This document shows, one piece after another, positions 13,758-37,478 of a stretch of 37,480 bases of DNA. The translations under genes were made by a program, and so were the position numbers. This DNA comes from a virus, in IMG/VR virus record IMGVR_UViG_3300044821_000048, positions 1 through 37,480 of that record; one strand, given 5' to 3'. Under the pieces are notes generated by a model. That model ran no database searches and was not told where the DNA came from. It saw nothing but the letters and a program-made list of their open reading frames with translations. The first letter of the stretch is position 1. Every line of letters starts with the position of its first letter.

Positions 13758-13763
13758 TTAACC

Positions 13764-14080: not shown

Positions 14081-14148
14081 TGTGGTTCGGGCGGGGCGGC
14101 GCAATGCTACCCCGCTATGCCCATTACTTTGATCTTAGAGGGGTATTG

Positions 14149-15027: not shown

Positions 15028-15752
15028 AAGTGCTGGATTTGATAATCGCTGCAGAGCGATCCATTAACGCTATAGGTATTGACGATGACCTTGACGCGGC
15101 AGAGGCCAATGCGGCTTTCAATCTACTCAATGGTATGCTCGACGAGTGGAACAACCAGCGCTTCGCGTGCTACCAACTTGTTGAAGATACGTACACAATG
15201 GCTGCGAACAAGGCAACGTATACAATCGGCCCTGATGCTACGGCAGATTTCAACGGTGCTCGACCAGTTGAGATAGACAAGATGTTCATACGCGACACCA
15301 GCCAGCCTGGTAACGTGGTAGACTATCCGATTGCGCTCATTACGAATGACCAATACCAATCAATCATGCTGAAGAAGGTGGGCAGCACCTACTCATATGT
15401 GGCGATGTACGTGCCATCGTTCCCTCTTGGAACAATCTCTTTCTTCCCGATGCCGTCGGCGGCGTTTGAGTTTCACATCACGCGATGGTATCAGTTCTCA
15501 TCTTTTAAGTCGTTGACTGATACGGTTTCTTTTCCACCTGGCTACCAGCTTGCTTTGACTTACGGCCTTGCCGAACTTCTCCCGACATTGGGCCACAATC
15601 CGCCCGATGCCGTAATGGCGAGAGTTGAGAGAATGTCTAAGAAATACATGGCAAGCATCAAAAGGATTAACGCAAAAGAGCCGATTATCGCATCTATCGA
15701 CCCGTACCTTATTGGGCGAAACATTGGCAACCCGAACATATTGACAGGATAG
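15024..15752 (+). CDS. Neck protein / packaged-DNA stabilisation protein, P22 gp4-like
   Basis: A 242-residue neck protein. The N-terminus KVLDLIIAAERSINAIG...NAAFNLLNGMLDEWNNQRF is the typical helical start of the P22 gp4 family (tail accessory factor), which attaches to the portal after packaging and carries the tail hub. The rest is beta-rich, ending in helical AVMARVERMSKKYMASIKRIN and NPNILTG. P22 gp4 is 166 residues; many podoviruses have about 200-250. Start overlaps the glycosyltransferase stop. It lies directly before the gp10-like gene, as in P22. Confidence 0.8.
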   Translation: MKVLDLIIAAERSINAIGIDDDLDAAEANAAFNLLNGMLDEWNNQRFACYQLVEDTYTMAANKATYTIGPDATADFNGARPVEIDKMFIRDTSQPGNVVDYPIALITNDQYQSIMLKKVGSTYSYVAMYVPSFPLGTISFFPMPSAAFEFHITRWYQFSSFKSLTDTVSFPPGYQLALTYGLAELLPTLGHNPPDAVMARVERMSKKYMASIKRINAKEPIIASIDPYLIGRNIGNPNILTG

Positions 15753-15753
15753 A

Positions 15754-17280
15754 ATGAAAACCAAAATTCCATTCGTTTCGGGTCAGTCTCAATCTAGGTC
15801 TAAATCTATAGACCTTCGCGAGGCCATCAATGTCTATCCTGAGAAGGAAAAGGCAGACGCTAAGAATGTCGCAGCATACATTGGTACTCCAGGATTGAGG
15901 CTCAAGACGGTTGTCAACGACGATAATGGCAACCTAATTCAATCCCCCCCGCGCGGATTCTATGTGACCGGACAGAAGCGTAGGTTTTGCGTTTACTCCA
16001 ACGGTCTTTACGAGATAATCCCACCGGGCTATGTCGTCAAGAGGGCAACGATCCTCACGACAAACGGATATGTGTACATGGCAGACAACGGAAATCAGAT
16101 GATGATTACCGATGGCCGAAACGGTTATGGTTTTGATCTGAAGACCAGCAAGCTCACCAAAATAACCGACCCTATTTTCCCGCAGTTTCCAGGCACATGC
16201 ACGTATCGGGATGGTTATTTCATCACGCATGACACGGATACGAACTACACATATGCCAGTGCGGCATTCGACGTATTTACGTGGCCGGTTGCTCACAAGG
16301 TGGCTAAAGAAACCAATAGCGACAATGTAGTCGCGGTAATCAGCACCGCAACATATCTCTGGGTGTTTGGTCAATCAACCGCTGAACTATGGTACAGCAC
16401 CGGGCAAGACGATATAGGGGCTCCTCCGTTTGTTAGGGCCCAAGAGATGGTGATATCTGTCGGGTGCATGGCCCCTGCTTCGGTGGTGACAAACGGAAAT
16501 GATGTGTTTTGGCTTGGAAGCAACCCAGCTGGCGGAAACGTAATCTGGATGGCAAACAGCTTTACTCCTCAGAGAATCACTACACACTCGGAAGAATTTT
16601 TGATTGGTCAAATGGATTCGGCCACAGATGCGACGGCTTATTGCTATCAGGAAGAGGGCCATTTCTTCTATGTCATCAACTTCCCAGAGGGAAGCACAAC
16701 ACATTGTTACGACCTTTCTACGGGGCTATGGCACCGTCGCGGGTATTGGAACGCAACGACGGGACAACTTGAAACCCATCTTGCTCTGTTCGCTTGTTCT
16801 GTTGGCTCTGATGTTTTATGTCTTGACAGGCGCAACGGGAATGTCTACTCTTTCGATCTCGGGATGTACAGCGACAACGGAGATTACATTCATCGCATTG
16901 CAACCATGTCGCACATACACCAAGATGAGCTAGACCTATTCATAGATCTGTTTGAGTTGACTATGGGGGTAGGTGTTGGGTTGGGTGACGGCATGATGAG
17001 TGGTGGAGTTACCACAGCATCAACCACCACGGTTACGACCGATAGCGACCCCGTGAATGACAACCCTCAGATATCTTTGCAATGGAGCAAAGACGGCGGT
17101 CATACTTGGTCTAAAGAGCACTGGGCATCAATAGGAAAGATCGGAAACTTCAAGAAGCGCGTTAGGTGGTGCTTTACAATGGGGAAGTCTCGCGATTGGG
17201 TTTTCAGGGTATCGACCATCGCAAAAGTAAAAACAGTTTGGATTGCAGCATACGCAAACATCGAGATTGAACCGAAATGA
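15754..17280 (+). CDS. Tail hub / DNA stabilisation protein, P22 gp10-like
   Basis: A 508-residue protein whose N-terminus (PFVSGQSQSRSKSIDLREAINVYPE) and middle (GYVYMADNGNQMMITDG; GTCTYRDGYFI; FGQSTAELWYSTG; NDVFWLGSNPAGGNVIW) are typical of P22 gp10-like hub proteins with a beta-propeller-like body. The C-terminal third has SLQWSKDGGHTWSKE, an Asp-box-like repeat. It plugs the neck and holds tailspikes. The pair gp4-gp10 supports the podovirus assignment. Its stop overlaps the next start. Confidence 0.82.
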   Translation: MKTKIPFVSGQSQSRSKSIDLREAINVYPEKEKADAKNVAAYIGTPGLRLKTVVNDDNGNLIQSPPRGFYVTGQKRRFCVYSNGLYEIIPPGYVVKRATILTTNGYVYMADNGNQMMITDGRNGYGFDLKTSKLTKITDPIFPQFPGTCTYRDGYFITHDTDTNYTYASAAFDVFTWPVAHKVAKETNSDNVVAVISTATYLWVFGQSTAELWYSTGQDDIGAPPFVRAQEMVISVGCMAPASVVTNGNDVFWLGSNPAGGNVIWMANSFTPQRITTHSEEFLIGQMDSATDATAYCYQEEGHFFYVINFPEGSTTHCYDLSTGLWHRRGYWNATTGQLETHLALFACSVGSDVLCLDRRNGNVYSFDLGMYSDNGDYIHRIATMSHIHQDELDLFIDLFELTMGVGVGLGDGMMSGGVTTASTTTVTTDSDPVNDNPQISLQWSKDGGHTWSKEHWASIGKIGNFKKRVRWCFTMGKSRDWVFRVSTIAKVKTVWIAAYANIEIEPK

Positions 17281-17927
17281 AAAAGCTCGACGTTATAACT
17301 ATTCACTTTGGAGACAAGCCTCTTGACGATATGCGGCTGGCGTGCGTTGCCAATACCCACGAGTTAGCCATTAAGGGTGGACATAATCATCACATTGTAA
17401 GCGATCAATCAGAAGTCGCAGGGCTTCAAACTACCATGACGCTATCTGAGGTTGACCGTCAGATCATGGAGAATGAACACGCCAAAAGAATATGGCTTAG
17501 AGCAAAGAATACAAAGTCCACAAACTACCGCGGTGACGACTTCTCTCCTATCGCAATGTCAGATGTTGCCAGGGTGTGGTTGTGCGGTCAGTATGATCGT
17601 GCGGCATACTTCGACACCGACATGATGGTGTCTATCCTAGACATCCCGTTGCCGTATGGCAAGCCGTGTTTCAATCAAATGAAATCGGTATGGGTTGATA
17701 TCGGCATTGTGTACACAAATGGTTGTCCTGAATGGTTCAACCAGTGGGCAAAGTTTGAGAGGCACGCGGACGCAATCGACAGGGGACACGGGTTTATCTG
17801 GCCGTTCCTGAACAGTAATCAACAGTTGCCGGGGATAGCCTTCCCCGGAATGCGTTCTATGATATCTCCTGATATCGGAATGATACCTCACACCTATTTT
17901 ACCCATAAGGGTGATACGTGGGCATGA
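17277..17927 (+). CDS. Glycosyltransferase-like protein 2 (DXD)
   Basis: A 216-residue protein with a GT32-type DXD plan: an N-terminal strand (LDVITIHFGDKPL), a SDVARVWL helix (95-102), AAYFDTDMMV with DXD at 113-115, and C-terminal ISPDIGMIPHTYFTHKG. It appears to be a paralog of the gene at 25898, which has SDRLRVWL, AMYFDAD and a LIP...FTH ending in the same order. The function as an enzyme is likely but unproven; the donor sugar and acceptor are unknown. It starts with ATGA overlap after the tail-hub gene and precedes the lysozyme gene. Confidence 0.7.
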   Translation: MKKLDVITIHFGDKPLDDMRLACVANTHELAIKGGHNHHIVSDQSEVAGLQTTMTLSEVDRQIMENEHAKRIWLRAKNTKSTNYRGDDFSPIAMSDVARVWLCGQYDRAAYFDTDMMVSILDIPLPYGKPCFNQMKSVWVDIGIVYTNGCPEWFNQWAKFERHADAIDRGHGFIWPFLNSNQQLPGIAFPGMRSMISPDIGMIPHTYFTHKGDTWA

Positions 17928-17928
17928 T

Positions 17929-18375
17929 ATGAACACAAATATCTTTGACAGCCTGATTAAGCCCGAAGAAGGCTTGTCTCTAACGGTCTATGCTGACAAG
18001 TTCGGCATATCAACGGTCGGCTTCGGCCACAAGGTGCTACCGGCTGACAACTTGAAGCTGGGCGACGAAATAGACATGGCGCGAGCTATTGCGCTGTACA
18101 ATGCTGACCGTGCGGAGGCGATTCGGTGCTGCGGGTTGCTTTTCGGCGATGCGTTTGTGACATACCCCGATGTGATCCAGGTCGTCATAGCTGACATCAT
18201 TTTCAACATGGGTTTGTCGAGGTTTTCAGCATTCCACGACACGATAGCGGCGGTTAAGGCGCACGATTGGAATGGCATGGCCGACGGGCTTACAGACAGC
18301 CTATGGCACCGGCAGTTACCGGAGCGGTCAAATAAGCTCATAGCGATGGTGCGCGAGGAGGCGAAGAAGGCATGA
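17929..18375 (+). CDS. Endolysin, T4-type lysozyme (GH24)
   Basis: A 148-residue muramidase. The catalytic triad has exactly T4 lysozyme spacing: E14 (EEGLSLTVY), D23 and T29 (ISTVGFGH), corresponding to E11, D20, T26. ADIIFNMGLSRFSAF and SLWHRQLPERSN are the usual second-lobe motifs. No signal peptide or SAR helix, so it needs a holin; the following small membrane genes supply candidates. The ATG at 17929 is chosen over 17911, which would overlap the previous gene. It cleaves peptidoglycan at the end of infection. Confidence 0.92.
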   Translation: MNTNIFDSLIKPEEGLSLTVYADKFGISTVGFGHKVLPADNLKLGDEIDMARAIALYNADRAEAIRCCGLLFGDAFVTYPDVIQVVIADIIFNMGLSRFSAFHDTIAAVKAHDWNGMADGLTDSLWHRQLPERSNKLIAMVREEAKKA

Positions 18376-18668
18376 ACATCGTAGGCCGTTACTTTCTGAA
18401 TATCGCGTTGGGCCTTGACCAGTTTGCGAACACGTTTGCCGGTGGTGAACCGGACGAGACTATTTCCTCTCGCCTTGGACGCATCAAAGAGGCTCACGGC
18501 GGCAAGATACCGGCGTACCGCCCCTTGGCCTGCTTCCTCGATTGGGGCCTTGACAAGATACAGGAGGATCACTGTATCAGGGCGATCGAGCGCGACGAGT
18601 TTCCAAAGATACGCGAGGACTCCGTTTTTGACGGCAACGAGGACACACAACCAAAGGGGAAAATATGA
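18372..18668 (+). CDS. Conserved small protein of lysis cassette
   Basis: A 98-residue protein of a type commonly found beside phage lysis genes: RYFLNIALGLDQFANTFAGG, PDETISSRLGRIKE, FLDWGLDKIQEDHCIRAIERDE. The two conserved pieces (DETISSRL and HC..AIE.DE) are characteristic. The function is unknown; it is often annotated as helicase without basis. Start overlaps the lysozyme stop (ATGA) and the stop overlaps the next start. Confidence 0.7.
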   Translation: MNIVGRYFLNIALGLDQFANTFAGGEPDETISSRLGRIKEAHGGKIPAYRPLACFLDWGLDKIQEDHCIRAIERDEFPKIREDSVFDGNEDTQPKGKI

Positions 18669-18886
18669 TGAACTGGATCATGCATAATCAGGTACTAGTT
18701 GGCGGCGGCATTGGTTTTGTGCTGTTGCTCCTCGGCATATGGGCGAACAAAACGAACCTCGAAAAATGGGGCGTTGCCTTTGCTGGTCTTCTCATCAAGT
18801 CGCTTGGAAAGAACAATGCGAAGATCATCATTGACGATCTCAACGTTTTTGTCGATGCGGCAGATTCAGAAGTTGACAAACCGTAA
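18665..18886 (+). CDS. Single-span membrane protein, holin candidate
   Basis: A 73-residue protein with one strong membrane helix (VLVGGGIGFVLLLLGIWAN, about 10-28), then a second moderately hydrophobic segment (WGVAFAGLLIK) and a charged acidic tail. Placed right after lysozyme in the lysis cassette, it is a candidate holin or pinholin. A class cannot be assigned by sequence alone, as the gene at 18926 and the one at 19520 are also possible. The starts ATGATG at 18665 and 18668 are equally placed. Confidence 0.55.
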   Translation: MMNWIMHNQVLVGGGIGFVLLLLGIWANKTNLEKWGVAFAGLLIKSLGKNNAKIIIDDLNVFVDAADSEVDKP

Positions 18887-18925
18887 TAACAACCACAATA
18901 ATCATAGACAGCGAAAACCAACATC

Positions 18926-19180
18926 ATGGAGCAGTGTTTAGAGCATCAGAGCGTAAAGTCGGCGTGTGCAGACATACCGGAACTGGTTAAGACCGTGCAT
19001 GAGCTTGTTTGTGCCCTCAATGGCGAGGTTGGCAAGCCGGGATGGATGACGCAGCAGGAATTGCGCATGGCGGCGATGGAACGACAGGTGAGCGTTATCA
19101 TGCGGGTTATGTGGGGGCTTGGAAGTGTGATCGGCCTTACGGTTCTCGGTATGATCCTACGGTCTGCGGGCATAGTATGA
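18926..19180 (+). CDS. XhlA-like membrane protein, lysis cassette
   Basis: An 84-residue protein: an N-terminal amphipathic helical part with Cys residues (CLEHQSVKSACADIPELVK), a helical linker (ELRMAAMERQVSVIMRV) and a C-terminal membrane span (MWGLGSVIGLTVLGMIL). This layout resembles XhlA-type haemolysin-associated phage proteins, which are membrane-anchored partners of holins. No Shine-Dalgarno precedes the ATG, so the start is less certain. The stop overlaps the next ATG. Confidence 0.55.
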   Translation: MEQCLEHQSVKSACADIPELVKTVHELVCALNGEVGKPGWMTQQELRMAAMERQVSVIMRVMWGLGSVIGLTVLGMILRSAGIV

Positions 19181-19347
19181 CCCGCATAACCCGCGCCGAG
19201 TTTGATCTGCAGCTATCCGAACGGAACTACACTGAGCACATGCTCAACTATCTATGGGATCGATACCCAAGCGATCGGAAGCGCGAGGAGCGGGAGAATG
19301 TGCTCGACTTGGAGACGAACGTGTTGCCGACAGCGGGGAAACGATGA
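19177..19347 (+). CDS. Small hydrophilic protein (56 aa)
   Basis: A 56-residue charged protein (MTRITRAEFDLQLSERNYTE...) translated from an ATGA overlap with the membrane gene before it; its own stop overlaps the next start. It is Arg/Glu-rich and helical, with no motif that I recognise. The double overlap is the evidence. Confidence 0.5.
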   Translation: MTRITRAEFDLQLSERNYTEHMLNYLWDRYPSDRKREERENVLDLETNVLPTAGKR

Positions 19348-19511
19348 CGGCTGGCGACATCATGGCAATTGACGCGATGCTGCGCGATATGAACGGCTCA
19401 GATTTTCGAGTCGACCTGCACAGGAAAGCAGAGCGCGATTTGATCGATCGGATGGAGCGCAATAGGCGAGATTCGAGACAGGCTAAGGGCGACGACAAGC
19501 GATACAAATAG
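19344..19511 (+). CDS. Small hydrophilic protein (55 aa)
   Basis: A 55-residue highly charged protein (MTAGDIMAIDAMLRDMNGSD..., Arg/Asp-rich end). The start at 19344 overlaps the previous stop (ATGA); longer frames upstream run through the previous gene and are unlikely. No family is recognised. It belongs to the lysis-region gene run. Confidence 0.5.
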   Translation: MTAGDIMAIDAMLRDMNGSDFRVDLHRKAERDLIDRMERNRRDSRQAKGDDKRYK

Positions 19512-19519
19512 GATACACC

Positions 19520-19732
19520 ATGCGACTCAATGAAAATCGTTACTTGGCAACAACGCGACAGTTAAACCGTTCCGTTGACAGGATATTGTGGCCGTGGCAC
19601 CGCTCGCACTGGATGAAACTCATTGCACTACTACTATTGGTGATCGTCGGGCAGGCGGGGGCTGGGGCTATCTCTCACAACTACGTAATTGCGGCATCGG
19701 CTGCGCCTGTGACGGATTCAAAAGTTCAGTAA
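19520..19732 (+). CDS. Small membrane protein, possible holin or spanin partner
   Basis: A 70-residue protein: a basic N-terminal 30 residues (RYLATTRQLNRSVDRILWPW), one membrane helix (MKLIALLLLVIVGQAGAGA, about 32-50) and a short, likely external tail. The N-in/C-out layout resembles small holins or inner-membrane spanins, but there is no coiled coil. AGGATACACC precedes the ATG. It is the last short gene before the 1297-codon gene. Confidence 0.5.
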   Translation: MRLNENRYLATTRQLNRSVDRILWPWHRSHWMKLIALLLLVIVGQAGAGAISHNYVIAASAAPVTDSKVQ

Positions 19733-19749: not shown

Positions 19750-22700
19750 ATGAAAATAGCTCTTGCTTTGTTGTTTCTTTATTCAAGCGCAATGGCTTCG
19801 GGATCATGGGGAACTGCTGGAAGCGTTACCAAAACCTATGGCGGGGGCGGTAATGTACCAGATAGAAAGACGGCATACGATAGCTGCGCATCCTCGGGTT
19901 GGTCTGCTGCGGCTCGTGTTGTTTTACTCCGAGTAGGAAACTCTGCTCGTAGTGCGTATATCGCTACAACAATCAATACTGGAACCGGGGAACTTGTAGA
20001 CTCGTCGGCGTCTCTTATGAACGGAGATCCAACGAGTGGGTATACCGACTCGATGTACGGCGGAGGGGGTTCAGATGCCTTCACGTTCACGGGAGCAGTA
20101 AAGTGGTATGGCCTGAGAGAAGTATATCGTCCATCAGGAGCATGCACATACGCATCTTCATTTGGTGGCAGCGGAGTATTGCAAGACACAATAGCCCAAT
20201 GCGCATTCATGTCAAAAAAGGATGCCGGATATTATAGCTATTGCTTTTACATCAATGATGCACAGGGAAAGTTCTTCATATACGACAACTATCTCGAAGG
20301 CCTAAATTATGGAGTACGCACTGTGAATATTAACGCGGCTTCGATATTTGAAAACAACTTGATCGACTCCATGGCATACGGAATCTATGCCTCATCCCAA
20401 ACCTTTACTGCCATTAATAATGTTTGCATGCGCAGCGCAGGAAACGACTTCGCCACATGCACAAATGTAACCGGATACAATAACACATCAATGGACGGTA
20501 CGGGCTTAGACGGGAATTTTAAGACAGGATCGTCAGGCAACACGGCGAACATGATTCCTGTCAACGAATTTGTTTCCCAATCAACCTACAATCGGTATTA
20601 TGGTAAACTGCTTGCAACAGGGTCGCTATATAATTCGGGCCGCGCGCCCCTGATATCTAAAAATACAAAAGGCATTCGGGGAAACAACCGACCTTACGAT
20701 GGCACTCATTATTCAAGGGGGGCTGACGAATATCTTCTTCCAGTCATGTATGTAACAAGGACTATGCCTTCAACCGGTTATACCTTCGGAGGTACGATCA
20801 TAAAGATCATCTCCGATTCTGCTTCGTTCAATGGCACCCCTGCCTGTTCTTTAATTTCAGGAGCAGCAAGATCCTCAATTACTATTACGTCAGCAACGAA
20901 CTCGGTGCTATTTGGAAAAACGACGGCTCATGTTGCCGGTGCGTGCAGCTTAAAAGTCGTCAATGGTGATGCGAGCGACCAAGCAATTGTTGCAGCGGCA
21001 TTTTCCTATGTGGCACCGGTCGTTTCATATTCTCCTATTAATTTGTCGGCACATCAGTGGAGACAATGCTCTGACACCCTTCTGAAAAACATTGGACCTT
21101 TCGATTCAGTAACAACAAAATCGACATTACCCAAAGGGTTGAATATTGCAAAAATCGGGAAGATGATGGGCCGTATTTATGGAGTCCCATCGGTCGCCGG
21201 AACATTCACCGACACGTCGTATTGTTGGTATGGCGGAGCAAGGCAATGCACTACCTATTTGCCTATTTCAATTTCAACGGACACAATGGCCGTTGATACT
21301 TCGTATCATTATTACAAATCAATTAAGCTTAAGAAAAGCAATGGGACCCATACTCAGGTGATCGCTTGGAACAAAACTGGTCATGCCGATACAACACTCT
21401 ACAACGACATGGTTATATCTCTTGCAAATGGTAAGCCTCAGTATTTCTATCCAATGAATCGAAGCAAAAGTACCTGTTCGCTTTGGGTTCATACGCCGGA
21501 TACAATCCTCCAGGACAATGCCCTGTTGCGTATTTATTACGGTAAAACTGGAGTACAATTGAATTCATGGATGAATCCTGACAGTGTAGGTAAAGGAGTA
21601 ATTCCGGTATTCTCAACTCCGGTTAATTATTCATATGCGCCAAATGTGAACATAAGCAAAAGAACAGCTTCTCTTGTCGCAAACGACGCAATGATGCTCG
21701 ACCCATCGAATGGAAAAACATACATACCCTACGCTCTTTATTATGCTGATGGAATGCTTCAAATGAGGTGCCGAATTTCTTCCGACAGTTGCAATACTAT
21801 CGATACTGATTTCGTGCTCTTAGATACAACGATGGGATTTACCTTCTGGGATGTTGAGGCTGGAGCGGCATATACCGTTGACAATGGTATCCGATATATG
21901 AATTTGCTCTCAGCCTGGACCCACAATGGAACTCGGCACACTGGACTTCTGAAGATTCCATGTGATTCAATTCTTGCCAAACGCACTCTTGACACTACGA
22001 TCTCAACCTTTATTCGAATTCCTCTGGATACCGGCAGGCTTGCGCTTTCCGATCCTGCCCATACCCCTCCTTTTTATTTTAGATCAAATCTTCAACGGTT
22101 ATCAAATGGGCGTTGGTGTGCAGCCGCCTATCACGTTGGAGGTAGCGAAAGTGGCCACACTGGAACAGGTACAATCTTCTTTATCTATTCTGATGACAAT
22201 CGAGTGAATTGGAATTACGACACCATGGCGGTGGATGCTTCCGTGGAAATTTCCGAAACCTCAATCGGAGAGATTAGAACAAATTGGGGTTATAACGGTG
22301 GAATTGTCGCCATTATTCGTACAGACGTGAGCGACACAAAGAAGACTCCGAAATTCGTTTTTTCCTATCAATATGGTGATTCTGGAACATGGGTCAATTA
22401 TGCAAATAGTCCTTGCACAACTACTCACTCCGGACCAACTCGTGGATACTCAAACTTTATGATTCGGACTGGAGATAGCACCTGTTTGATGACGTTAGGA
22501 TCATACTACTTTGGAGACGTATACGCAACCTATCCTGATACAAACGGAAATGAAGGTACGATATGGGAGCATAAAGAAGCATTCTCATCTGGAGATTCGT
22601 CTGGAATGACGTTATATCCTTCTGCAGTAACATATGGAAAATATGAGGCGATCACCTTCCTGAACAACGGTGGCCCAACCGGTAACGGTCATATAATTCG

Positions 22701-23643
22701 ATATTCTCATTCAGACAATGCCATTGCTTCCCCTTCTTTAAGTTCTGTTTATTGCAATACTCCAGGTTCTATCACAATGAATAAAAATGGCACTGTCATG
22801 GGCAGTACGCTCAAAACCTTGACACCCAAAACTGATTCGATCGTTGGAATGTTCAATTTCAAGGCATACACAACACCCGACAATAGTGGTGGGTTTGGTC
22901 TTTATGATAGATCTGCTGCCAAGGGGGTTCAATTTTATCCGTGGTCGCCGATGATTTATAAAATCAATTGCGACACATCTAGCAATGTCACACTTAACCC
23001 CTCTGATTGGTACAACAAATGGAACACCGCAAATTTCACGTGGTCACAAAATCAGATGCGTCTTTATCGAGATACCGTATTAAAAGCAACTGGATCAGTT
23101 CCATGTACGACTACCACTAAACTCGGCATGGAAATGTATGGATCTGATTCGGCGTGGGTGTTTTCGGCCATTGGCGCACGGTCTATGAGTTTGATTCCTT
23201 CTGCCGATAGCGAATACTCGGAACAGACCCGAAACAGCTCTGACACCGTTCCACCAACCGTGACCGCCTACAGCCCCGCCAACGGTGCTACGGCTGCGGA
23301 TACGGCTTTTGCGGGTGGCAAGACGGTGGTGATACAGTTCAGCGAGGCGGTCAAGGCTGGTAGCGGGAGCTTCACCTTGTACAAGTGGAGCAACGACTCG
23401 TCGATGAAAGTCGTAGCGGTCGCATCGGCCACGATCAACGGGTTTACCGTTACCGTGCCGTTTACAGGGGTTCACGCGGATACATCGGCCTACTACTATG
23501 TCAAGTATCCCACCGGTATCGTCACAGACTCCGCTGGCAACTCGGCGGCGGGGGTGACGACCAGCACTGGGTGGCGGTGGAAAACATCCAATTATAAAAC
23601 ACAGGCTAGAGATTGGTTTTTCTTTTGGAAACGTCACAGATAA
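19750..23643 (+). CDS. Large exported multidomain carbohydrate-binding-type protein
   Basis: A 1297-residue protein starting with a classic signal peptide (MKIALALLFLYSSAMA, then SG), preceded by GGGAG. Modules, as I read them: a right-handed beta-helix-like region (about 20-330, with NYLEGLNYG, NNLIDSMAYG and the end GADEYLLP), an IPT/TIG-like Ig domain (330-425), a putative-Ig/He_PIG-like domain (430-510, LPKGLNI...GRIYGVP), a DUF2341-like domain (515-610), a sialidase-like propeller region (620-1010, with FFIYSDDNRVNWNY), a lectin/LamG-like domain (1020-1150) and a C-terminal Big_5-like Ig domain (1175-1280). It sits between lysis and tail genes. A signal peptide is unexpected for a tail protein; it may be displayed on or released from the host, or the peptide is vestigial. 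Confidence 0.6.
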   Translation: MKIALALLFLYSSAMASGSWGTAGSVTKTYGGGGNVPDRKTAYDSCASSGWSAAARVVLLRVGNSARSAYIATTINTGTGELVDSSASLMNGDPTSGYTDSMYGGGGSDAFTFTGAVKWYGLREVYRPSGACTYASSFGGSGVLQDTIAQCAFMSKKDAGYYSYCFYINDAQGKFFIYDNYLEGLNYGVRTVNINAASIFENNLIDSMAYGIYASSQTFTAINNVCMRSAGNDFATCTNVTGYNNTSMDGTGLDGNFKTGSSGNTANMIPVNEFVSQSTYNRYYGKLLATGSLYNSGRAPLISKNTKGIRGNNRPYDGTHYSRGADEYLLPVMYVTRTMPSTGYTFGGTIIKIISDSASFNGTPACSLISGAARSSITITSATNSVLFGKTTAHVAGACSLKVVNGDASDQAIVAAAFSYVAPVVSYSPINLSAHQWRQCSDTLLKNIGPFDSVTTKSTLPKGLNIAKIGKMMGRIYGVPSVAGTFTDTSYCWYGGARQCTTYLPISISTDTMAVDTSYHYYKSIKLKKSNGTHTQVIAWNKTGHADTTLYNDMVISLANGKPQYFYPMNRSKSTCSLWVHTPDTILQDNALLRIYYGKTGVQLNSWMNPDSVGKGVIPVFSTPVNYSYAPNVNISKRTASLVANDAMMLDPSNGKTYIPYALYYADGMLQMRCRISSDSCNTIDTDFVLLDTTMGFTFWDVEAGAAYTVDNGIRYMNLLSAWTHNGTRHTGLLKIPCDSILAKRTLDTTISTFIRIPLDTGRLALSDPAHTPPFYFRSNLQRLSNGRWCAAAYHVGGSESGHTGTGTIFFIYSDDNRVNWNYDTMAVDASVEISETSIGEIRTNWGYNGGIVAIIRTDVSDTKKTPKFVFSYQYGDSGTWVNYANSPCTTTHSGPTRGYSNFMIRTGDSTCLMTLGSYYFGDVYATYPDTNGNEGTIWEHKEAFSSGDSSGMTLYPSAVTYGKYEAITFLNNGGPTGNGHIIRYSHSDNAIASPSLSSVYCNTPGSITMNKNGTVMGSTLKTLTPKTDSIVGMFNFKAYTTPDNSGGFGLYDRSAAKGVQFYPWSPMIYKINCDTSSNVTLNPSDWYNKWNTANFTWSQNQMRLYRDTVLKATGSVPCTTTTKLGMEMYGSDSAWVFSAIGARSMSLIPSADSEYSEQTRNSSDTVPPTVTAYSPANGATAADTAFAGGKTVVIQFSEAVKAGSGSFTLYKWSNDSSMKVVAVASATINGFTVTVPFTGVHADTSAYYYVKYPTGIVTDSAGNSAAGVTTSTGWRWKTSNYKTQARDWFFFWKRHR

Positions 23644-23951: not shown

Positions 23952-25901
23952 ATGGCCTCAACGATATCCCCAACGCCAGTAACAACGCCCATAGCCGGGA
24001 ATATGCTCATATCTCCCGCGTGGGCTAATTGGTTGCGACAGTTACAGCTATCGACAAACGGCTGGAACACCAGCCCGGCGATAAATGTGACTGATGCTGA
24101 GATAGCCAACTGGAACACGGCCTTTTCTTGTGGAGATTGGAGGCCAAGGGTTACGGCAATCGAGGCGTGGCCAGCGGCGGCGATAACCGGGGCGGAGATA
24201 TCAAACTGGAATGCCGCGTATGCGTTCGACAATGCCGCTAATCTTACCGCAAATCACTTGATCGGTTTCGATGGTGCAACCCTTGTCAATTCTCCGGTAC
24301 TTTACAACACCTATGGCGCATACATAGGGTCAACGGCATCCGATTCAACATATAAGCTAAGATTAGATTCTGGGGCGGTTTTTTTAGGCGCATCGGCAAT
24401 TGGAACAATTTCAGAAGGAGCTCCGGCTAGAACGGCCCTAAACCTTTCTGCTTATCGTGACGGCTTGTTGATTAATAGGCTTGTTGACGCTGGTGGCTAC
24501 GGAACGTCTGCCGGTATAACGATTAATGATGGTTCTATTGTCGCCGTAAATCCGTTGACTGCTTACGGATTGAAAATTGAGAATCAGACAATCGGCCTTA
24601 ATAATAACTGGTCAATCTACACCGGCAACGCCCCGAGCTGGTTTGGTTCAAATATCACTACCAGATTGACAGATGCAAATAACGCTTCGGTTATTTACCC
24701 GCTTCGCGTAGACCATGCTTTGTCAAGCGGCAACGCGGCGGCGGGGATGGGGACGGGTATCGAGATTTACGGCCAATACTATAATGGGTCGGCCAATATT
24801 TCGTACGCTTTGGGGTCAGTTGCTTGTTCGCTACTATCTGGCGGCCCACCTATTTACAAAATGGGGATCTCCGTTGGCTATGCCGGAAACCTTTCGGAGA
24901 TGGTGACCCTTTCGAGGGGCCCGGTGTCCTATCAAGAATCCGTATCTCTTAACGCATTTTCAATTATCGCTGGGTCTGCGGCATCAAACAATACCATCTC
25001 CTCGGCCCTCACATACAAGGCGACGATCGGAAACACTTCTGCCGGTTTCGGCGCTCAATTGCAGTGCAAACTCGACAACTCCACAGGGTCAAATGCCGTA
25101 GCCTCCAACATCCTGACTAAATGGGTATCGGCCAGTAATCCTGACTCGCGCATGGTATTGCAGACCGTGACGGCTGGTGCGGCGGATACGGGATTGTCGG
25201 TTTACATGCACTCGTGGGCCAATAGCGATATCGCGCCAGCGGCGACTATCGACCTGATGTATGCCGATAACACATGGGCAAAACCATTCGGACTAATGCA
25301 TGTTTCGGGGTTGGCACACGGAATTACAGCTTACGCTCCGACAGATGCCTTTGGCTTTTTATCGATGGCTGGCGCAGGGACAGGGGGTCTATTGGGCGGA
25401 CTTCTTGTTCGTGGGCTAGGAAGACAGACCAGTGGAATCAGGATTGAGGGCCTAACCAATGATGTTACAACGCTCGGAACCACCCCGCTTGTCCTCATGG
25501 GGGCCAAGGCCAACGGAGTAAATATTCAGGCCCTGGCCTCAACGGAAAAAGTATTCAGCCTGCTGAATTATACGACAGAGTGCATGTCTTTCAATGGTGC
25601 CGGAAGCACTACGATTCTTGGGGCCATTTCGATCACATCGAAAACCACGGTCGGGGCCGGTGGAGCATTTCCAGGTACGGCAGTATCCATTGCAACGGCC
25701 AATGTCTCCCGAGCCTCGATAACTCCTACCGCCGGAAACATTTACTATTTCTTGAGTCTCACCGGGGCTGTCGATGGGCAGGTCGTTGTGGTATACAACT
25801 TGTCGGGGTTTGTGGCAAACATTGGCACGGCAGGAGCCACCGTTGCGGCGAACCTTTCCCGCTCGTTCGTCTACGACTCCGGCTTTGGGGGCTGGCTGTG
25901 A
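23952..25901 (+). CDS. Tail fiber-like structural protein
   Basis: A 649-residue protein. The N-terminus has two copies of a short motif: TDAEIANWNTAF and TGAEISNWNAAY, about 50 and 90 residues in. The body is Gly/Ser/Ala-rich and beta-structured (repeated ASDSTYKLRLDSGAVFLG-type strands), fitting a trimeric fiber shaft, with a C-terminal GLSGFVANIGTAG-like stretch. No catalytic motif is visible. Located among tail genes; its stop overlaps the GTG start of the third glycosyltransferase gene. Confidence 0.6.
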   Translation: MASTISPTPVTTPIAGNMLISPAWANWLRQLQLSTNGWNTSPAINVTDAEIANWNTAFSCGDWRPRVTAIEAWPAAAITGAEISNWNAAYAFDNAANLTANHLIGFDGATLVNSPVLYNTYGAYIGSTASDSTYKLRLDSGAVFLGASAIGTISEGAPARTALNLSAYRDGLLINRLVDAGGYGTSAGITINDGSIVAVNPLTAYGLKIENQTIGLNNNWSIYTGNAPSWFGSNITTRLTDANNASVIYPLRVDHALSSGNAAAGMGTGIEIYGQYYNGSANISYALGSVACSLLSGGPPIYKMGISVGYAGNLSEMVTLSRGPVSYQESVSLNAFSIIAGSAASNNTISSALTYKATIGNTSAGFGAQLQCKLDNSTGSNAVASNILTKWVSASNPDSRMVLQTVTAGAADTGLSVYMHSWANSDIAPAATIDLMYADNTWAKPFGLMHVSGLAHGITAYAPTDAFGFLSMAGAGTGGLLGGLLVRGLGRQTSGIRIEGLTNDVTTLGTTPLVLMGAKANGVNIQALASTEKVFSLLNYTTECMSFNGAGSTTILGAISITSKTTVGAGGAFPGTAVSIATANVSRASITPTAGNIYYFLSLTGAVDGQVVVVYNLSGFVANIGTAGATVAANLSRSFVYDSGFGGWL

Positions 25902-26368
25902 TATTCACCATTTGGCTCTCAGGTACAATACCTCCGGCTTATCAACGATGCATCGACAGTCTGAAATCGGTATACCCTGATTTGGCTGTTTTCACTGATT
26001 GGGGAGATTGCCCGTTATCTAGGACCGGAAACGACCGCGACGATAGCGACCGGCTCAGAGTGTGGCTTCTTTCGGAGCACGAAGAGGCCATGTACTTTGA
26101 TGCTGATATCGAGGCAAAAGAGACTCTCGAGATGCCCAAATCTGGCGAGGTTGTGATGTCTCACCATTGGGGGATGCTCGACATTTTCGCAATGGGCCAC
26201 AATTACGCCAAAAGGTTATTTGAGAATGCCGTTGAAATCTATAAAAATGGTGGTGACACACTCAAAGTTTTAAGGTATTTTGAGTGCAATAAGGGTATAA
26301 TTACTCTTATACCCAATGATGGGAGATTTACCCACCTCTGCCTAACCGGGAGAACTCAAAATGCCTGA
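25898..26368 (+). CDS. Glycosyltransferase-like protein 3 (DXD), GTG start
   Basis: A 156-residue protein beginning with GTG that overlaps the fiber stop (GTGA). It shows SDRLRVWL (50-57), AMYFDADIE with DXD at 68-70, and a C-terminal LIPNDGRFTHLCLTG, the same order as in the gene at 17277, so the two are probable paralogs; this one is 60 residues shorter. The nucleotide-sugar core is intact. The coupling to a fiber gene suggests that it could modify that fiber, but host-glycan modification is equally possible. An upstream in-frame extension to 25580 is a shadow of the fiber gene. Confidence 0.65.
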   Translation: MIFTIWLSGTIPPAYQRCIDSLKSVYPDLAVFTDWGDCPLSRTGNDRDDSDRLRVWLLSEHEEAMYFDADIEAKETLEMPKSGEVVMSHHWGMLDIFAMGHNYAKRLFENAVEIYKNGGDTLKVLRYFECNKGIITLIPNDGRFTHLCLTGRTQNA

Positions 26369-30991: not shown

Positions 30992-32899
30992 ATGGCAACA
31001 TACGTACCGTTTTTTCTCGACCGATCTTTTAACGACACGGGAACACCTCTTGCGGGGGGCCTGCTGTACACCTACGCGGCGGGAACCGGTAACACGGCTC
31101 AGCTGCCGACATACCAAGACCCTGCCGGAACGATACCATTTACCAACCCTATCGTACTGAATGCTGGCGGCTTCCCGACGAACGGAAGCGGAAACCCCGT
31201 GCCGATCATATGGTTACCGTCAGGAGTGGCGTACAAGTTCATTCTCACGGATTCTCTGTCTAACGTGATATGGGAGAACGATAACTATTCTTCGGGTTCG
31301 GGGATTGTCGGGTTTACGACAAACCTTGTGACAGACCTTAGGGGGATAATCGGGTCAGGCGCCGGTCAGCCGGTTTTTGTTGATGGCGTTACGTTGGTAG
31401 GTGACGGGGGCCAAGGTTGGTGGTATTGGGATGCTGCGAGCACCGCAGCCGATGACCTTGGGATAGTGATAAAGCCAACGCCAAACTCGGGAGCTGGTCG
31501 GTGGTTGCGTTTTGTTGTTGACAAAGTTAATGTCAAGTGGTATGGCGCAAAAGGCGACGGAACAAACGACGATTATCAGGCCTTCTCATCTGCCCAATCG
31601 GCGGCACTATCGTTGATTGTTCCAATGTATGCGCCTGTCGGGAGCTACAAGCTCAGGACAGACCCAGGCATAACGGTTTCTCCGATAATCCTCGATACAC
31701 ATGCGGTTCTTGTTGCGATGGGATTTTCTATGAACCTTTGCCCGATCATTGCAGACAAGGGAAAACATTTCGATATCGTAACCGGTGGAACAGGAACAGC
31801 ATACCATTTTGTACAGGCCAACACCTATTATTCAGCATACAACAACGCAATTGTGCAAGACGTTTTCCCCGAATGGTTTGGGGCGTGGGGCGACAACGCG
31901 CTCGATGACAGCGCGGCGATTCAGGCAGCCATATACTCGGTGTCCGGGGCCGTTGTTCGGCTTACCGCCCCTCTCTATCACACTCTGATCGGGCTTAATT
32001 ACACATCCAATCTTACCGTAATAGGCAATGGGTCAAACGGCATACGCTCCGCAGATGCAAACGTATTTGTAGGAATAAATGCAGCAAGCAATGTCTTGTT
32101 CAAAGATTTCACGGTTCAGGCAACATCGTACCCAATAGTAATAGGCAATGGAACGGGAGACAACATTGTTATTGACAACGTGAAAGAAGTCAATACGTCT
32201 TTCGGATTCTTGGTCGGGTATGCAACAACTCGCCTCAAAATAAACCGGTGCAAAACTGCCGGAAGAATATCTGTAACGGATTGCCCTGGTGCGGTCATAA
32301 CAAACAATTCATATGCTAACTTGTACCTTCTCGGATCATCTCCATTTTGCAACGTGAAAGACAACGTGACAACCGGAACCGTGTCTATCAGCGCAACAAG
32401 CTCTATGACCAGCCTTGGAAACTCCAACGGTGGAACGTCAACCGCTATTGTCGAGACCGTTCCCCGGTGGTTGAGATTTAGGGTTTCGGCGGCTGACATT
32501 CAGATAGGAAATCAATGCTATTCAAAGAAATTGTTTTACCTTCCTTCGGGATGCATGATTGCAGATGCCATAATGGTCAACTACAACTCGTGGTCCGGTG
32601 GCGGGGTGTCTTGGGTGGCCATATCGCTAGGATTTGGAGTGTGGTATTCCGCTGACGGGTACTATGGCACTCCTACAGGATACGATGATATAATTAGCTG
32701 CTACACCCCGATCACATATCTGCAAGGGTACCGGTTCCCTGGAAATAACAGACACTTAGCGTATGGAAACGTCTACGTTGGATATCCAATCGTTTGCACA
32801 GTGCAAACCGACGTAAACCTTAACACCGTGGTAGCTGGAGCAGTAGATATTTTTGTTCAAGTGGTACAATTGCCAGTCAACAACTATCCATACTGCTAA
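30992..32899 (+). CDS. Tailspike with head-binding domain and pectate-lyase-like beta-helix
   Basis: A 635-residue tailspike. Residues 1-100 form a phage head-binding-type domain (FFLDRSFNDTGTPLAGGLLY, then YKFILTDSLSNVIWENDNY). Two Pectate_lyase_3-type starts follow: WYGAKGDGTNDD near 185 and EWFGAWGDNALDD near 300. From there a right-handed beta-helix repeats until about 480, and a C-terminal beta-rich domain ends the protein. It binds and probably cleaves a surface polysaccharide; active-site acids cannot be identified by eye. It is the last virion gene, followed 11 bp later by homospermidine synthase. Confidence 0.8.
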   Translation: MATYVPFFLDRSFNDTGTPLAGGLLYTYAAGTGNTAQLPTYQDPAGTIPFTNPIVLNAGGFPTNGSGNPVPIIWLPSGVAYKFILTDSLSNVIWENDNYSSGSGIVGFTTNLVTDLRGIIGSGAGQPVFVDGVTLVGDGGQGWWYWDAASTAADDLGIVIKPTPNSGAGRWLRFVVDKVNVKWYGAKGDGTNDDYQAFSSAQSAALSLIVPMYAPVGSYKLRTDPGITVSPIILDTHAVLVAMGFSMNLCPIIADKGKHFDIVTGGTGTAYHFVQANTYYSAYNNAIVQDVFPEWFGAWGDNALDDSAAIQAAIYSVSGAVVRLTAPLYHTLIGLNYTSNLTVIGNGSNGIRSADANVFVGINAASNVLFKDFTVQATSYPIVIGNGTGDNIVIDNVKEVNTSFGFLVGYATTRLKINRCKTAGRISVTDCPGAVITNNSYANLYLLGSSPFCNVKDNVTTGTVSISATSSMTSLGNSNGGTSTAIVETVPRWLRFRVSAADIQIGNQCYSKKLFYLPSGCMIADAIMVNYNSWSGGGVSWVAISLGFGVWYSADGYYGTPTGYDDIISCYTPITYLQGYRFPGNNRHLAYGNVYVGYPIVCTVQTDVNLNTVVAGAVDIFVQVVQLPVNNYPYC

Positions 32900-32910
32900 A
32901 GGGTTTCAAC

Positions 32911-34488
32911 ATGCCAAAACTATCAGACATATCGACCTCAAATGTAAAGATGGTTTCCAACGGACACGAGGGAGAGGAAGAGCCTCAACTCATCGCCAAG
33001 CCTGCCCCCATTGCCAAGAAGACAGTCAAGTTTGACGGTAACGTGGTGTGCATCGGAGCCGGCAGTGTTTGGGAATGCATGTTCCCTCTTCTTGTCAAGC
33101 ACCTCGATTTAGACCTGTCTAAGGTAACGATAATCGACATGCTGGATCGCAAGCCAGTATTGAAAAACTGGATCGATGCAGGAGCCACTTTCGAGCAGAT
33201 ACAAATCGTGCCCGAAAACTTTGAGGAGGTCATGGAGAACCATTTCGCTGCCGGAGATCTGTGCATTGACCTGGCGTATGACATTTGTTGCATAGAGATA
33301 TTGCAATGGTGCCGAGACAATGAGGTTTTGTACATCAACACATCTATCGAGGAGTGGGATTACACCGATGGTTTTGACTCCCGAAGCTCATACGACAAGA
33401 GCTTGTACGCACGCCGCCAAGAGATTGACGCTGTTATGCACGAATGGAATGGCGGAGAGACTACGGCGGTACTCGAATACGGAGCCAACCCCGGCCTGAT
33501 ATCGGCGTTTATGAAACAAGGTTTGATGGATTTAGCAAAATCAGAGGGGGTAAAATTCAAGGGAGATTTTGCCGAGCTTGCCCGTGATCTGGGTGTTAAG
33601 GTAGTTCTCGACACTGAGCGAGACACCCAGCGCATGATCAGGCCCCGCGAATCTGGCGAGTTTGTTGGCACGTGGTCTTGTCTTGGCCTCCTAGAAGAGG
33701 CTACAAGCCCGGCTGAGCTAGGATGGGGTACCCATGAGGGTAAGCCGCCAATCGAGGCCACTGTGCCCTCAAAGGGCCCTAAGAATCAAATCTTCCTGCA
33801 TCAGATGGGCATGAATACCCGCGTAAGGGGTTTTGTACCACCTCCGATCGATGCGGACTACCTGGATGAGGGCGGAGACGAGAAAACCGAGCCGATCAGC
33901 GCAGACGGCCAAATCATGGGGGTTCTGATTCGTCACGGTGAGGCTTACACCATAAGCGACTTTCTGACCACCAAGGACGGAAAGTATAGGCCAACGGTCT
34001 ATTATTGCTATATGCCTTGTGATGCTACTCAGGCGAGTTTGCAGGAGCTACGCGCTAACGACTACAAGCCACTTTGCCAGCAGAGAATCGCCTACGAGCA
34101 CGAGATAGAGTATGGTTCTGATGTTCTCGGGGTGATGATCGGGGGCTATGACGATGAGCACGTTTGGTGGTGTGGATCGTCTTTGAGCATCGAGGATGCC
34201 CGTAAACTTGCCCCGCTACAGAACGCTACTACTTTGCAAGTTGCGGCGGGAATCGTGTCGGCAATCTGTTGGATGATAGAGAACCCCAATGAGGGGGTAG
34301 TAAATCCAGAAGATATTCCCCATGAGTACATTCTCAAGAACGCGAAACCGTACCTTGGGGATTTCATATCCAAGGAATACGAGTGGACGCCGGTAGACAA
34401 CGCGACAAATTACTTTCCCGAACGCAAAGAGCTTGATGTTGACGAAAAGGATATATGGAAATTTTCAAACTTTCTTGACAGGCAGTGA
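32911..34488 (+). CDS. Homospermidine synthase
   Basis: A 525-residue NAD-dependent enzyme of the bacterial homospermidine synthase family (saccharopine dehydrogenase fold), making homospermidine from two putrescines and releasing ammonia. Characteristic pieces, in order: Rossmann loop IGAGSVWECMFPLL (48-61) and acidic strand end IIDMLDR (74-80); LEYGANPGLISAFMKQGL (188-205); TERDTQ (235-240); EFVGTWS (250-256); PAELGWGTHE (267-276); IRHGEAYTISDFL (340-352); RPTVYYCYMPCDA (360-372); QNATTLQVAAG in the C-terminal domain. Residues 1-45 are an extra N-terminal extension. The ATG follows AAAGGG. Its 3' end overlaps the convergent minus-strand gene by 24 bp. As the last gene of the late operon, it may supply polyamine for packaging or rescue host polyamine levels. 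Confidence 0.85.
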   Translation: MPKLSDISTSNVKMVSNGHEGEEEPQLIAKPAPIAKKTVKFDGNVVCIGAGSVWECMFPLLVKHLDLDLSKVTIIDMLDRKPVLKNWIDAGATFEQIQIVPENFEEVMENHFAAGDLCIDLAYDICCIEILQWCRDNEVLYINTSIEEWDYTDGFDSRSSYDKSLYARRQEIDAVMHEWNGGETTAVLEYGANPGLISAFMKQGLMDLAKSEGVKFKGDFAELARDLGVKVVLDTERDTQRMIRPRESGEFVGTWSCLGLLEEATSPAELGWGTHEGKPPIEATVPSKGPKNQIFLHQMGMNTRVRGFVPPPIDADYLDEGGDEKTEPISADGQIMGVLIRHGEAYTISDFLTTKDGKYRPTVYYCYMPCDATQASLQELRANDYKPLCQQRIAYEHEIEYGSDVLGVMIGGYDDEHVWWCGSSLSIEDARKLAPLQNATTLQVAAGIVSAICWMIENPNEGVVNPEDIPHEYILKNAKPYLGDFISKEYEWTPVDNATNYFPERKELDVDEKDIWKFSNFLDRQ

Positions 34489-34647
34489 CTTTGCTTTTAT
34501 GTGAAAATTCTTGTCTTCTATCCATTTGACCATCTCGGCCTTTTTTCTCAATGACAACCCGCGAAACTGTGCGATAAGTTCTCGCCTTTGCTTTCGGTTG
34601 TAATGATTGAGGTCAAAATGCTCGTTGAGTACAGCAAGCGTGTTCAT
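34465..34647 (-). CDS. Small basic helical protein
   Basis: A 60-residue basic protein (NEHFDLNHYNRKQRRELIAQ, then RGLSLRKKAEMVKW). The ATG at 34647 overlaps the GroES stop (ATGA) and follows GAGGAG, which rules out the longer frame. No family is known to me; basic and helical, it could bind nucleic acid. Its end overlaps the homospermidine synthase end, so the two operons converge here. Confidence 0.6.
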   Translation of the reverse strand: MNTLAVLNEHFDLNHYNRKQRRELIAQFRGLSLRKKAEMVKWIEDKNFHIKAKSLPVKKV

Positions 34648-34988
34648 TCTACGCTCCTCGGATGAACCTTGTATTTGTTCCACGAGGTTACTGATGTGCC
34701 AGGCTCTATCACGGCAAGGATGTTGCACTCTGTAACTGATAACACCATTCGCTTGTCATCAAGGTACTCGCCAGCAAGCGGAGAAAAAAGAACCTCATCA
34801 CCTACCGACACCTTAGGGGACTCATATCGTCCAGCTTTTTCCAACCACTCCCCGTGACCTACAGAGTCAACCGTACCAACACAGAAAGATAGCTGGTTAG
34901 CTCCTTGGGGCAAGAACAGCAAGCCGGATTGTGTTTTTTCTGGGATCTCTTTCAGCTTAATTATTACTCTATCTTTTAGTGGAATCAT
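34644..34988 (-). CDS. GroES-like co-chaperonin
   Basis: A 114-residue co-chaperonin with the Cpn10 pattern: IPLKDRVIIKLKEIPEKTQSG (start to mobile loop; GroES has LHDRVIVKRKE), the mobile loop with LLFLPQ in place of the GroEL-binding IVL tripeptide, CVGTVDSVG, VSVGDEVLFSPLAG (GroES VKVGDIVIF) and VTECNILAVIE (GroES MSESDILAIVE). It would cap host GroEL, as T4 gp31 does, perhaps to fit a larger coat protein. A 15-residue tail follows. The ATG has GAGG 9 nt upstream. It lies in the operon from the promoter at 35774-35802. Confidence 0.88.
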   Translation of the reverse strand: MIPLKDRVIIKLKEIPEKTQSGLLFLPQGANQLSFCVGTVDSVGHGEWLEKAGRYESPKVSVGDEVLFSPLAGEYLDDKRMVLSVTECNILAVIEPGTSVTSWNKYKVHPRSVE

Positions 34989-34999: not shown

Positions 35000-35212
35000 C
35001 TATTTTCTATGGTCGCCGCAAAATTGCGTGTTGCACGGCGAAGCGGACTGTTGCCCGGCACTCCCCTTGTCCTGCGGCTGGGCGGCGCACTTGGCACAAA
35101 GCACCTTGACAACGACTGCCTTGTCGCACGACATACACCTACATTGTGCAACTACACCACCGCACTGCTCACACACCTGCTGCCTACAAATTGCACACAA
35201 CGTTTCAGGCAT
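35000..35212 (-). CDS. Small zinc-ribbon protein
   Basis: A 70-residue protein with four cysteine pairs: CAIC, CEQC, CRCMSC and CAKC, in a MPETLCAICRQQVCEQCGG opening, giving one or two zinc ribbons, then a hydrophilic tail. Its first codons (ATG CCT GAA ACG TT...) are the same as those of the methyltransferase at 37153 because they lie in the duplicated 155-bp cassette. The start overlaps the RHH-gene stop by 8 bases (ATGCCTGA). It precedes the co-chaperonin gene by 11 bp. Confidence 0.65.
   Translation of the reverse strand: MPETLCAICRQQVCEQCGGVVAQCRCMSCDKAVVVKVLCAKCAAQPQDKGSAGQQSASPCNTQFCGDHRK
35009..35030. repeat. 22-bp repeat, also at 36211-36232
   Basis: The 22 bases starting ATGGTCGCCGCAAAATTGCG and ending TG are identical at 35009-35030 and 36211-36232. 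Both lie shortly before a minus-strand gene start (GroES-like, and the basic protein at 36194). The centre CGCAA-AA-TTGCG is palindromic. A shared linker of this kind may mark where genes were swapped. Confidence 0.7.
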
Positions 35213-35344
35213 GGCGAAGTTGCCGCGCCCACTTTTCGAGCAACATCCTATCGACCGTTACGAAGCGATTACTATGAGCGCCGATGATCTCATTTTCAAT
35301 CTGCGCGGCAATTTGCGCTGCTTCAGCCGCCATGCCTGTGTTGG
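35190..35344. repeat. Duplicated gene-junction cassette, copy 1
   Basis: These 155 bp match 37131-37285 with 3 mismatches by my count. The cassette holds the 3' half of one gene, the ATGCCTGA overlap, and the first codons of the next gene. Upstream and downstream sequences differ, so it is not a whole-gene copy. Confidence 0.9.
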
Positions 35345-35561
35345 TGGATGTTGGCGCGGACTCCGCTGTCTCCTGCGGCGGCTCTTCCGGCACCGAGCGT
35401 GCCGGCCATGATTTCCTCTTTGAAAGCCACTCGTTTAGAGCAATCCTGCACTGGCTCGAAAATGTGCGGCCTTCTTTTTCCGCAATTTCTTGCAGCCTTA
35501 TTTTGTCGGATGAACCGAGGCGGATTTTAACCACCTCAGTTGTTTCGGGTTGTTTGGTCAT
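35205..35561 (-). CDS. RHH-domain protein with duplicated C-terminal module
   Basis: A 118-residue protein. Residues 1-50 resemble an Arc/CopG ribbon-helix-helix domain (VVKIRLGSSDKIRLQEIAEK, then TFSSQCRIALNEWL). A Pro/Glu-rich linker follows (to about 75). The last 43 residues (from GMAAEAAQIAAQIENEII) are nearly identical to the C-terminus of the unrelated protein at 37146; only W/C and M/V differ. The start at 35561 overlaps the upstream stop (ATGA). The RHH end may bind DNA and the C-terminal helix pair may bind a partner that both proteins share. Confidence 0.65.
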   Translation of the reverse strand: MTKQPETTEVVKIRLGSSDKIRLQEIAEKEGRTFSSQCRIALNEWLSKRKSWPARSVPEEPPQETAESAPTSTNTGMAAEAAQIAAQIENEIIGAHSNRFVTVDRMLLEKWARQLRHA

Positions 35562-36262: not shown

Positions 36263-37130
<868 letters not shown>

Positions 37131-37153
<23 letters not shown>

Positions 37154-37285
37154 GGCGAAGTTGCCGCGCACACTTTTCGAGCAACACCCTATCGACCGTT
37201 ACGAAGCGATTACTATGAGCGCCGATGATCTCATTTTCAATCTGCGCGGCAATTTGCGCTGCTTCAGCCGCCATGCCTGTGTTGG
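37131..37285. repeat. Duplicated gene-junction cassette, copy 2
   Basis: Second copy of the 155-bp cassette found at 35190-35344. In this copy it links an unknown protein gene to the DNA methyltransferase; in the other it links an RHH gene to a zinc-ribbon gene. Confidence 0.9.
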
Positions 37286-37433
37286 GCGATTTTGTTGGCG
37301 ACTCCTCTGCTTCAGGGGCGCGATTTATTGCCTCGTCAATTATCGCTGCTTCTCGATCTGTACATATCGCGGTGAACGACACATCGTCTGAGGTTATCAT
37401 ATGCACGCAACTTGAAAATGTTTTTATCGGCAT
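37146..37433 (-). CDS. Unknown protein with duplicated C-terminal module
   Basis: A 95-residue protein. The N-terminal 50 residues (MPIKTFSSCVHMITSDDVSF, then TDREAAIIDEAINR) share nothing that I see with the RHH protein at 35205; the C-terminal 43 are nearly the same. The start is preceded by AAAGGGG at about 7 nt. The stop overlaps the methyltransferase ATG (ATGCCTGA). On the joined circle it follows the Lar-like gene, so it lies between two anti-restriction-type genes. Function unknown. Confidence 0.6.
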
Positions 37434-37478
37434 TTCGCGCCCCTTTTAAAAGTGATCTCGCCAACTATTTCGCCCAAC
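37353..37478. repeat. Right copy of 126-bp terminal direct repeat
   Basis: Exact copy of positions 1-126. It contains the first 27 codons and the ribosome binding site of the minus-strand gene ending at 37146. The two final contig bases (TA) do not match positions 127-128. Confidence 0.9.

Follow-up and report, generated by a model that had tools for sequence, protein, structure and literature searches.

The homospermidine synthase gene and its setting

The viral DNA analysed here (the window, 37,480 nucleotides) begins and ends with an identical 126 bp (1-126 = 37353-37478), and is thus probably a complete, circularly assembled genome of ~37.35 kb. Its portal (PF16510, E 5e-129) and coat protein (PF11651, E 5e-11) mark it as a P22-like phage. 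A gene for a homospermidine synthase (HSS) is the final gene of the rightward virion block, with the next ORFs on the minus strand. The locus is laid out as follows.

30992-32899, plus strand: tailspike gene, 635 aa, directly upstream of HSS (Pfam Pect-lyase_RHGA_epim and PHROGs tail spike/EPS depolymerase matches)
32898-32903, plus strand: Shine-Dalgarno-like AAAGGG overlapping the tailspike stop codon (sequence read directly)
32911-34488, plus strand: HSS gene, 525 aa (Pfam, phmmer against PDB, AlphaFold/Foldseek, pocket residues)
32911-33042, plus strand: N-terminal extension, residues 1-44 (in 12/12 clade members and in none of the cellular or large-phage HSS; pLDDT ~90 for residues 11-40)
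32944-33015, plus strand: motif VxxVxNGxxGExEPxxxAxPAPIA, residues 12-35 (alignment conservation)
33043-33471, plus strand: NAD-binding Rossmann domain, residues 45-187 (Pfam PF03435, model secondary structure)
33481-34362, plus strand: C-terminal catalytic domain, residues 191-484 (Pfam PF16653; N193, P194, E236, W255, E263, H342, E344, Y365, Y367 and T440 conserved)
33841-33918, plus strand: loop insertion, residues 311-336, immediately preceding the catalytic H342 strand (clade alignment)
34465-34728, minus strand: next ORF
34644-34988, minus strand: cpn10/GroES-like gene, convergent with HSS (Pfam E 2.6e-14)

The 525-codon HSS frame opens with an ATG at 32911, leaving a gap of 11 nt after the tailspike stop at 32899, as a preliminary description of this DNA had reported. 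That description also made HSS the last gene of the virion operon, which is true of the window but not as a rule, since two further plus-strand ORFs lie 3' of HSS in the closest relative, L001. A plus-strand promoter scan returned nothing beyond chance level, and we infer late expression solely from gene order. A cpn10 homologue also lies near HSS in L001 (13456-13794, minus strand), and GroES is annotated in the P22-like phage MW202674.

Several other features of the window were recorded. A perfect (GCA)12 tract at 36809-36845, within a DNA methylase gene (36263-37171, minus strand), encodes a run of 12 cysteines and possibly reflects in-frame repeat-number variation or an assembly artefact. 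Two adjacent leftward gene modules each carry, at the 3' end, one copy of a 180-bp direct repeat (35189-35368 and 37130-37309, 94% identical). On the leftward, early side, the ORF at 6330-7253 (minus strand) holds eight exact 6-bp copies at 6789-6837, giving a DKDKDK run. A long tandem array in a 15-bp register encodes a pentapeptide-repeat protein (Pfam E 1.2e-41) at 5063-5803 (minus strand). Within the virion block, the 1297-aa product of 19750-23643 (plus strand) has a Big_5 domain and begins with a signal-peptide-like stretch. Two further virion-block ORFs (17277-17927 and 25580-26368, plus strand) look glycosyltransferase-like by eye; Pfam assigned no family to the former and gave only a sub-threshold match for the latter. 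Host searches among Omnitrophota yielded a single weak match for the portal protein (285 genomes) and chance-level matches only for window DNA 7400-19600 (384 genomes).

Fold and active site

The motifs from which an HSS had originally been recognised (EYGANPG, ERDTQ, PAELGWGTHE and IRHGEAYTISDF) are all present in the ORF, and independent searches agree with that identification. Pfam recognises two domains of saccharopine-dehydrogenase type, Sacchrp_dh_NADP (E 1.3e-20) and Sacchrp_dh_C (E 6.7e-19), the former (PF03435) covering the NAD-binding Rossmann domain with its glycine-rich loop GAGSVWE. Phmmer matches are exclusively homospermidine synthases, the best being 2ph5 (E 6.7e-91, query residues 37-521). 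NCBIfam gave no match for the window HSS, nor for one cellular relative, and PHROGs gave none for the window HSS. An AlphaFold model built with 72 related sequences, the one used throughout, reached pLDDT 92.1 and pTM 0.93; with 7 sequences only, pLDDT was 45. In Foldseek the model matched 4xq9 (E 3e-48, TM 0.92), and the top 21 matches were all HSS (TM 0.90-0.93 by target length). Carboxyspermidine dehydrogenase, the next family, was far weaker (E 2e-12, TM 0.68-0.69). We had considered this identity on account of the decarboxylase neighbour seen in cellular relatives, and rejected it on the much weaker fold match; moreover, the phages have no PF02784 decarboxylase partner, and the cellular neighbour is lysine/ornithine-decarboxylase-like.

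The preliminary description had proposed checking the pocket by alignment with bacterial enzymes, and this revealed no loss. Eleven pocket residues of the Blastochloris viridis enzyme (BvHSS) map onto the window protein (E117 to E147, N162 to N193, P163 to P194, E210 to E236, W229 to W255, E237 to E263, H296 to H342, E298 to E344, Y323 to Y365, Y325 to Y367 and T396 to T440), and all 11 are identical to BvHSS in the window and in 12/12 members of its clade. BvHSS mutants N162D, E237Q, H296S and E298Q (PMC4725965), as well as E210A/K/Q, W229A/E/H/K and E117K (PMC8489232), are inactive or nearly so, and the seven mutation-sensitive positions (E117, N162, E210, W229, E237, H296, E298) are kept by every one of the 12 clade members. 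Some residues at the pocket rim depart from BvHSS (V93Y, Y123D/E, E232L, S236E, N297G), so the substrate range could differ. In the HSS core, pN/pS between relatives is 0.15-0.27, synonymous sites being almost saturated.

Fold, pocket residues and phylogeny strongly support the view that the window gene is a real, apparently intact bacterial-type HSS. Taken together with the purifying constraint, the fold and pocket residues make it very likely that the enzyme is active.

A separate phage clade within cellular HSS

The rarity of HSS on phage genomes, also part of the preliminary description, was borne out: tblastn across 50,697 annotated phage records found HSS in Achromobacter phage Motura alone, and no member of the window's clade. 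IMG/VR contained 29 HSS loci, twelve of which (L001-L006, L009-L014) carry a window-type HSS; a repeat of the viral scan with the 12-member alignment returned the identical locus set. L013 and L014 are near-identical, leaving, with the window, 12 distinct clade members, all from uncultured phages.

Phylogeny against cellular homologues, another check proposed at the outset, placed the window HSS and the other members in a single phage-only clade (support 100/100) that lies inside cellular HSS, apart from large-phage HSS. The clade arises within the HSS of Omnitrophota, Elusimicrobiota and related lineages; its closest non-phage relatives, from Omnitrophota, Elusimicrobiota and Margulisiibacteriota, reach up to 48% identity. 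The cellular set was picked by peptides conserved in the phage proteins and is a sample of nearest relatives only. Motura formed a long branch in one tree and was omitted from the second. A scan of 84,980 species genomes, in which a single-protein query gave nothing and an alignment query gave loci, returned no phage-clade member among the best 80 loci, and the clade phages were therefore not seen as prophages there.

Comparison with known systems sets the clade in context. It shares its fold, NAD domain and full catalytic set with bacterial HSS (B. viridis 4plp/4xq9, Legionella pneumophila 2ph5, Pseudomonas aeruginosa 6y87), but adds an extension of 44-92 residues, a loop of 15-33 residues and the pocket-rim changes. 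The Omnitrophota-type cellular HSS within which it branches lack both extension and loop, and often adjoin an ornithine-decarboxylase-type gene. Phage HSS as a kind is already known, although the preliminary description did not mention it, from Motura and from phiRSL1, whose enzyme has been shown to be active (PMC9992855) and which we took to be the IMG/VR isolate record L018 (231,255 bp). These two enzymes have the same catalytic set as the present clade, yet form a separate branch without extension or loop, in genomes of >200 kb as opposed to 37 kb for the window. In Motura, HSS lies one small gene from a glutathionylspermidine synthase gene, whereas the present clade records are without PF03738. 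HSS is also virus-encoded in Chlorovirus PBCV-1 and Imitervirales, several of these enzymes being active (PMC9992855); they belong to eukaryotic viruses, are 23-27% identical (two found in BFVD) and often occur with other polyamine genes.

Two phage-specific segments

A 45-residue N-terminal extension had been noted before. The extension is real (residues 1 to ~44), but it is not mere extra length, being conserved in the phage clade, and a second addition, of 26 residues at 311-336, had been missed. All 12 clade members have an extension of 44-92 residues. Cellular and large-phage HSS, among the homologues compared, begin near the Rossmann strand and do not have the extension motif. Within the motif, V15, G18, G21, E22, E24, P25, P33 and A35 are invariant in alignment A1, as are the matching columns of A2, and the stretch 5' of it (toward the N-terminus) varies among phages. 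The motif pattern is absent from every other frame of the window and of all loci. In the model the conserved part has a pLDDT of ~90 and forms short strands, and thus probably packs on the enzyme. The loop region measures 26 residues in the window and 20-38 in 12/12 clade members, versus 5-6 in 60/60 others aligned, an addition of 15-33 residues over other HSS. The model is less certain at the first ten residues and at the loop (pLDDT 59-66 for residues 311-330).

Position in the virion gene block

In 12/12 clade phages HSS shares the strand of the virion gene block and lies inside it, although its exact place differs. It follows the tailspike in the window and L001, and a 770-aa virion-block protein in L002, and it adjoins very large virion-block proteins in L010 and L013. 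The neighbours in L002, L010 and L013 have no family match and would be virion proteins to judge by gene order. In L003 HSS lies between portal and MuF; in L009, and by gene order likewise in L004-L006, L011 and L012, it lies between MuF and the scaffold/major-head-protein genes. PHROGs confirmed portal, head morphogenesis and major head protein in both L003 and L009, together with terminase in L009. The virion gene plans that contain HSS are thus of at least two unrelated types. On the tree, MuF-type and P22-type members interleave (L003 stands apart from L004-L012), so a transfer of the HSS gene or of the virion module from one plan to another is probable. L004 also encodes, at 1211-3607 (plus strand), a terminase large subunit of 798 aa with an apparent intein by eye (Hint-like start, HN end).

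The HSS and an internal-virion-type protein of the window and L001 share an MPxLSxI start. We considered this as a packaging signal and rejected it, as it is absent from other clade members and was not seen when virion-block proteins of two P22-like relatives were inspected. MPx(L/I)(S/G)xI-like starts occur at 32911 and 27312 in the window and at 10001, 4774 and 11714 in L001 (HSS and two other virion-block proteins), probably by chance.

Pathway context

No ornithine/arginine decarboxylase of family PF02784 was found in the window or in the clade phage records (mostly fragments), so the phage HSS probably draws its putrescine from the host. Glutathionylspermidine synthetase (PF03738) was likewise absent from the window and the other, mostly fragmentary, clade records; it is present in the phiRSL1-size record G309 and three others. 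Among the nearest cellular relatives, an ornithine-decarboxylase-type gene lies within 1.5 kb of HSS in 48/80 loci, its best PDB match being lysine/ornithine decarboxylase, and at one cellular locus (L069) an arginase-type gene adjoins HSS. These neighbours fit the expected route from ornithine through putrescine to homospermidine; they favour HSS as the function of the parent family and suggest that the phage uses host putrescine. Four cellular genomes (G001, G002, G003, G009) have 2-3 HSS paralogues each; an ornithine-decarboxylase-type gene adjoins one but not another.

Discussion

Phage polyamine genes are usually read as general metabolic help. The explanation that we favour as a whole, with a probability of roughly 0.65, is that the phages encode a competent HSS, expressed as a late gene, which makes homospermidine from host putrescine and goes back to a single old acquisition. 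It infers activity, product, late timing and product use from computed homology, fold, pocket residues, clade, gene position and constraint. The NAD-dependent enzyme would join two molecules of host putrescine into sym-homospermidine. It would be carried, and probably expressed, alongside the virion proteins, and its product would then be available when the genome is condensed and packaged and late proteins are translated. Homospermidine would serve to condense DNA, to aid late translation, or for both purposes; polyamines in phage particles and phage dependence on polyamines are established generally, in other phages (PMC7226272; PMC9992855). The preliminary description had suggested that the polyamine might neutralise the charge of packaged DNA, replace host polyamines or serve host recovery; our results favour none of these over the others, beyond pointing, through the missing PF02784 decarboxylase, to the host as the probable source of putrescine. 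A single ancient transfer from an Omnitrophota-type cellular HSS would have brought the gene into phages. Purifying selection would since have preserved it as it spread between differing virion architectures and gained the N-terminal segment that packs on the enzyme and the loop near the active site.

The same gene position could be read as that of a virion protein, with the extension docking HSS in or on the particle so that it is delivered with the genome and acts as the next infection starts. HSS is placed with virion genes in every one of the 12 members (though with differing neighbours), follows a large virion-block protein in L002 and L013 and flanks MuF in L003 and the L009-type loci, and the extension is conserved and clade-specific. 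Late co-transcription accounts for that position equally well, however; the model has the conserved stretch of the extension ordered on the enzyme (pLDDT ~90), as a loose cargo tag would not be, residues ahead of its motif vary among phages, and no other virion protein examined carries the motif. We consider such a role quite unlikely, and are as doubtful that the extension tethers HSS to the particle or packaging machinery, whether to provide homospermidine at the packaging site or to deliver the enzyme with the genome. An HSS-fold enzyme with shifted specificity, making another amine (e.g. from cadaverine, diaminopropane or agmatine) or a mixture, is unlikely but deserves somewhat more weight. 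Clade-specific rim changes at BvHSS positions 93, 123 and 232, and a long insertion right before the catalytic His strand, would be compatible with it. Every inner-site putrescine-binding and catalytic residue is nevertheless kept, and the rim changes S236E and N297G (59/80) are common to cellular relatives, many of them beside ornithine decarboxylase genes.

The absence from the window of a putrescine-making decarboxylase of PF02784 means that the host pool would be consumed, and HSS might therefore serve to drain host putrescine or unbalance host polyamines, as take-over or counter-defence, rather than to supply particles or translation. No linked partner gene points to host take-over, and early take-over genes are not usually kept in the virion block; we regard this as very unlikely. 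That HSS is a functionless neutral passenger is compatible with its place at the end of the virion block in the window genome, but is strongly disfavoured, to the point of being scarcely credible, by an open frame that is intact in 12/12 phages, under strong purifying selection and retained through long divergence.

Our literature search found no published description of a phage-only HSS clade. What appears to be new is a separate clade with two phage-only segments, and its occurrence in a 37-kb P22-like phage and in HK97/MuF-type phages, always in the virion block. At least two unrelated virion plans thus share a polyamine enzyme that has stayed in the virion block and bears phage-only segments, which opens to direct test the long-standing idea that phages themselves manage the cations condensing their DNA. 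The result also points to an uncharacterised group of HSS in Omnitrophota and related phyla.
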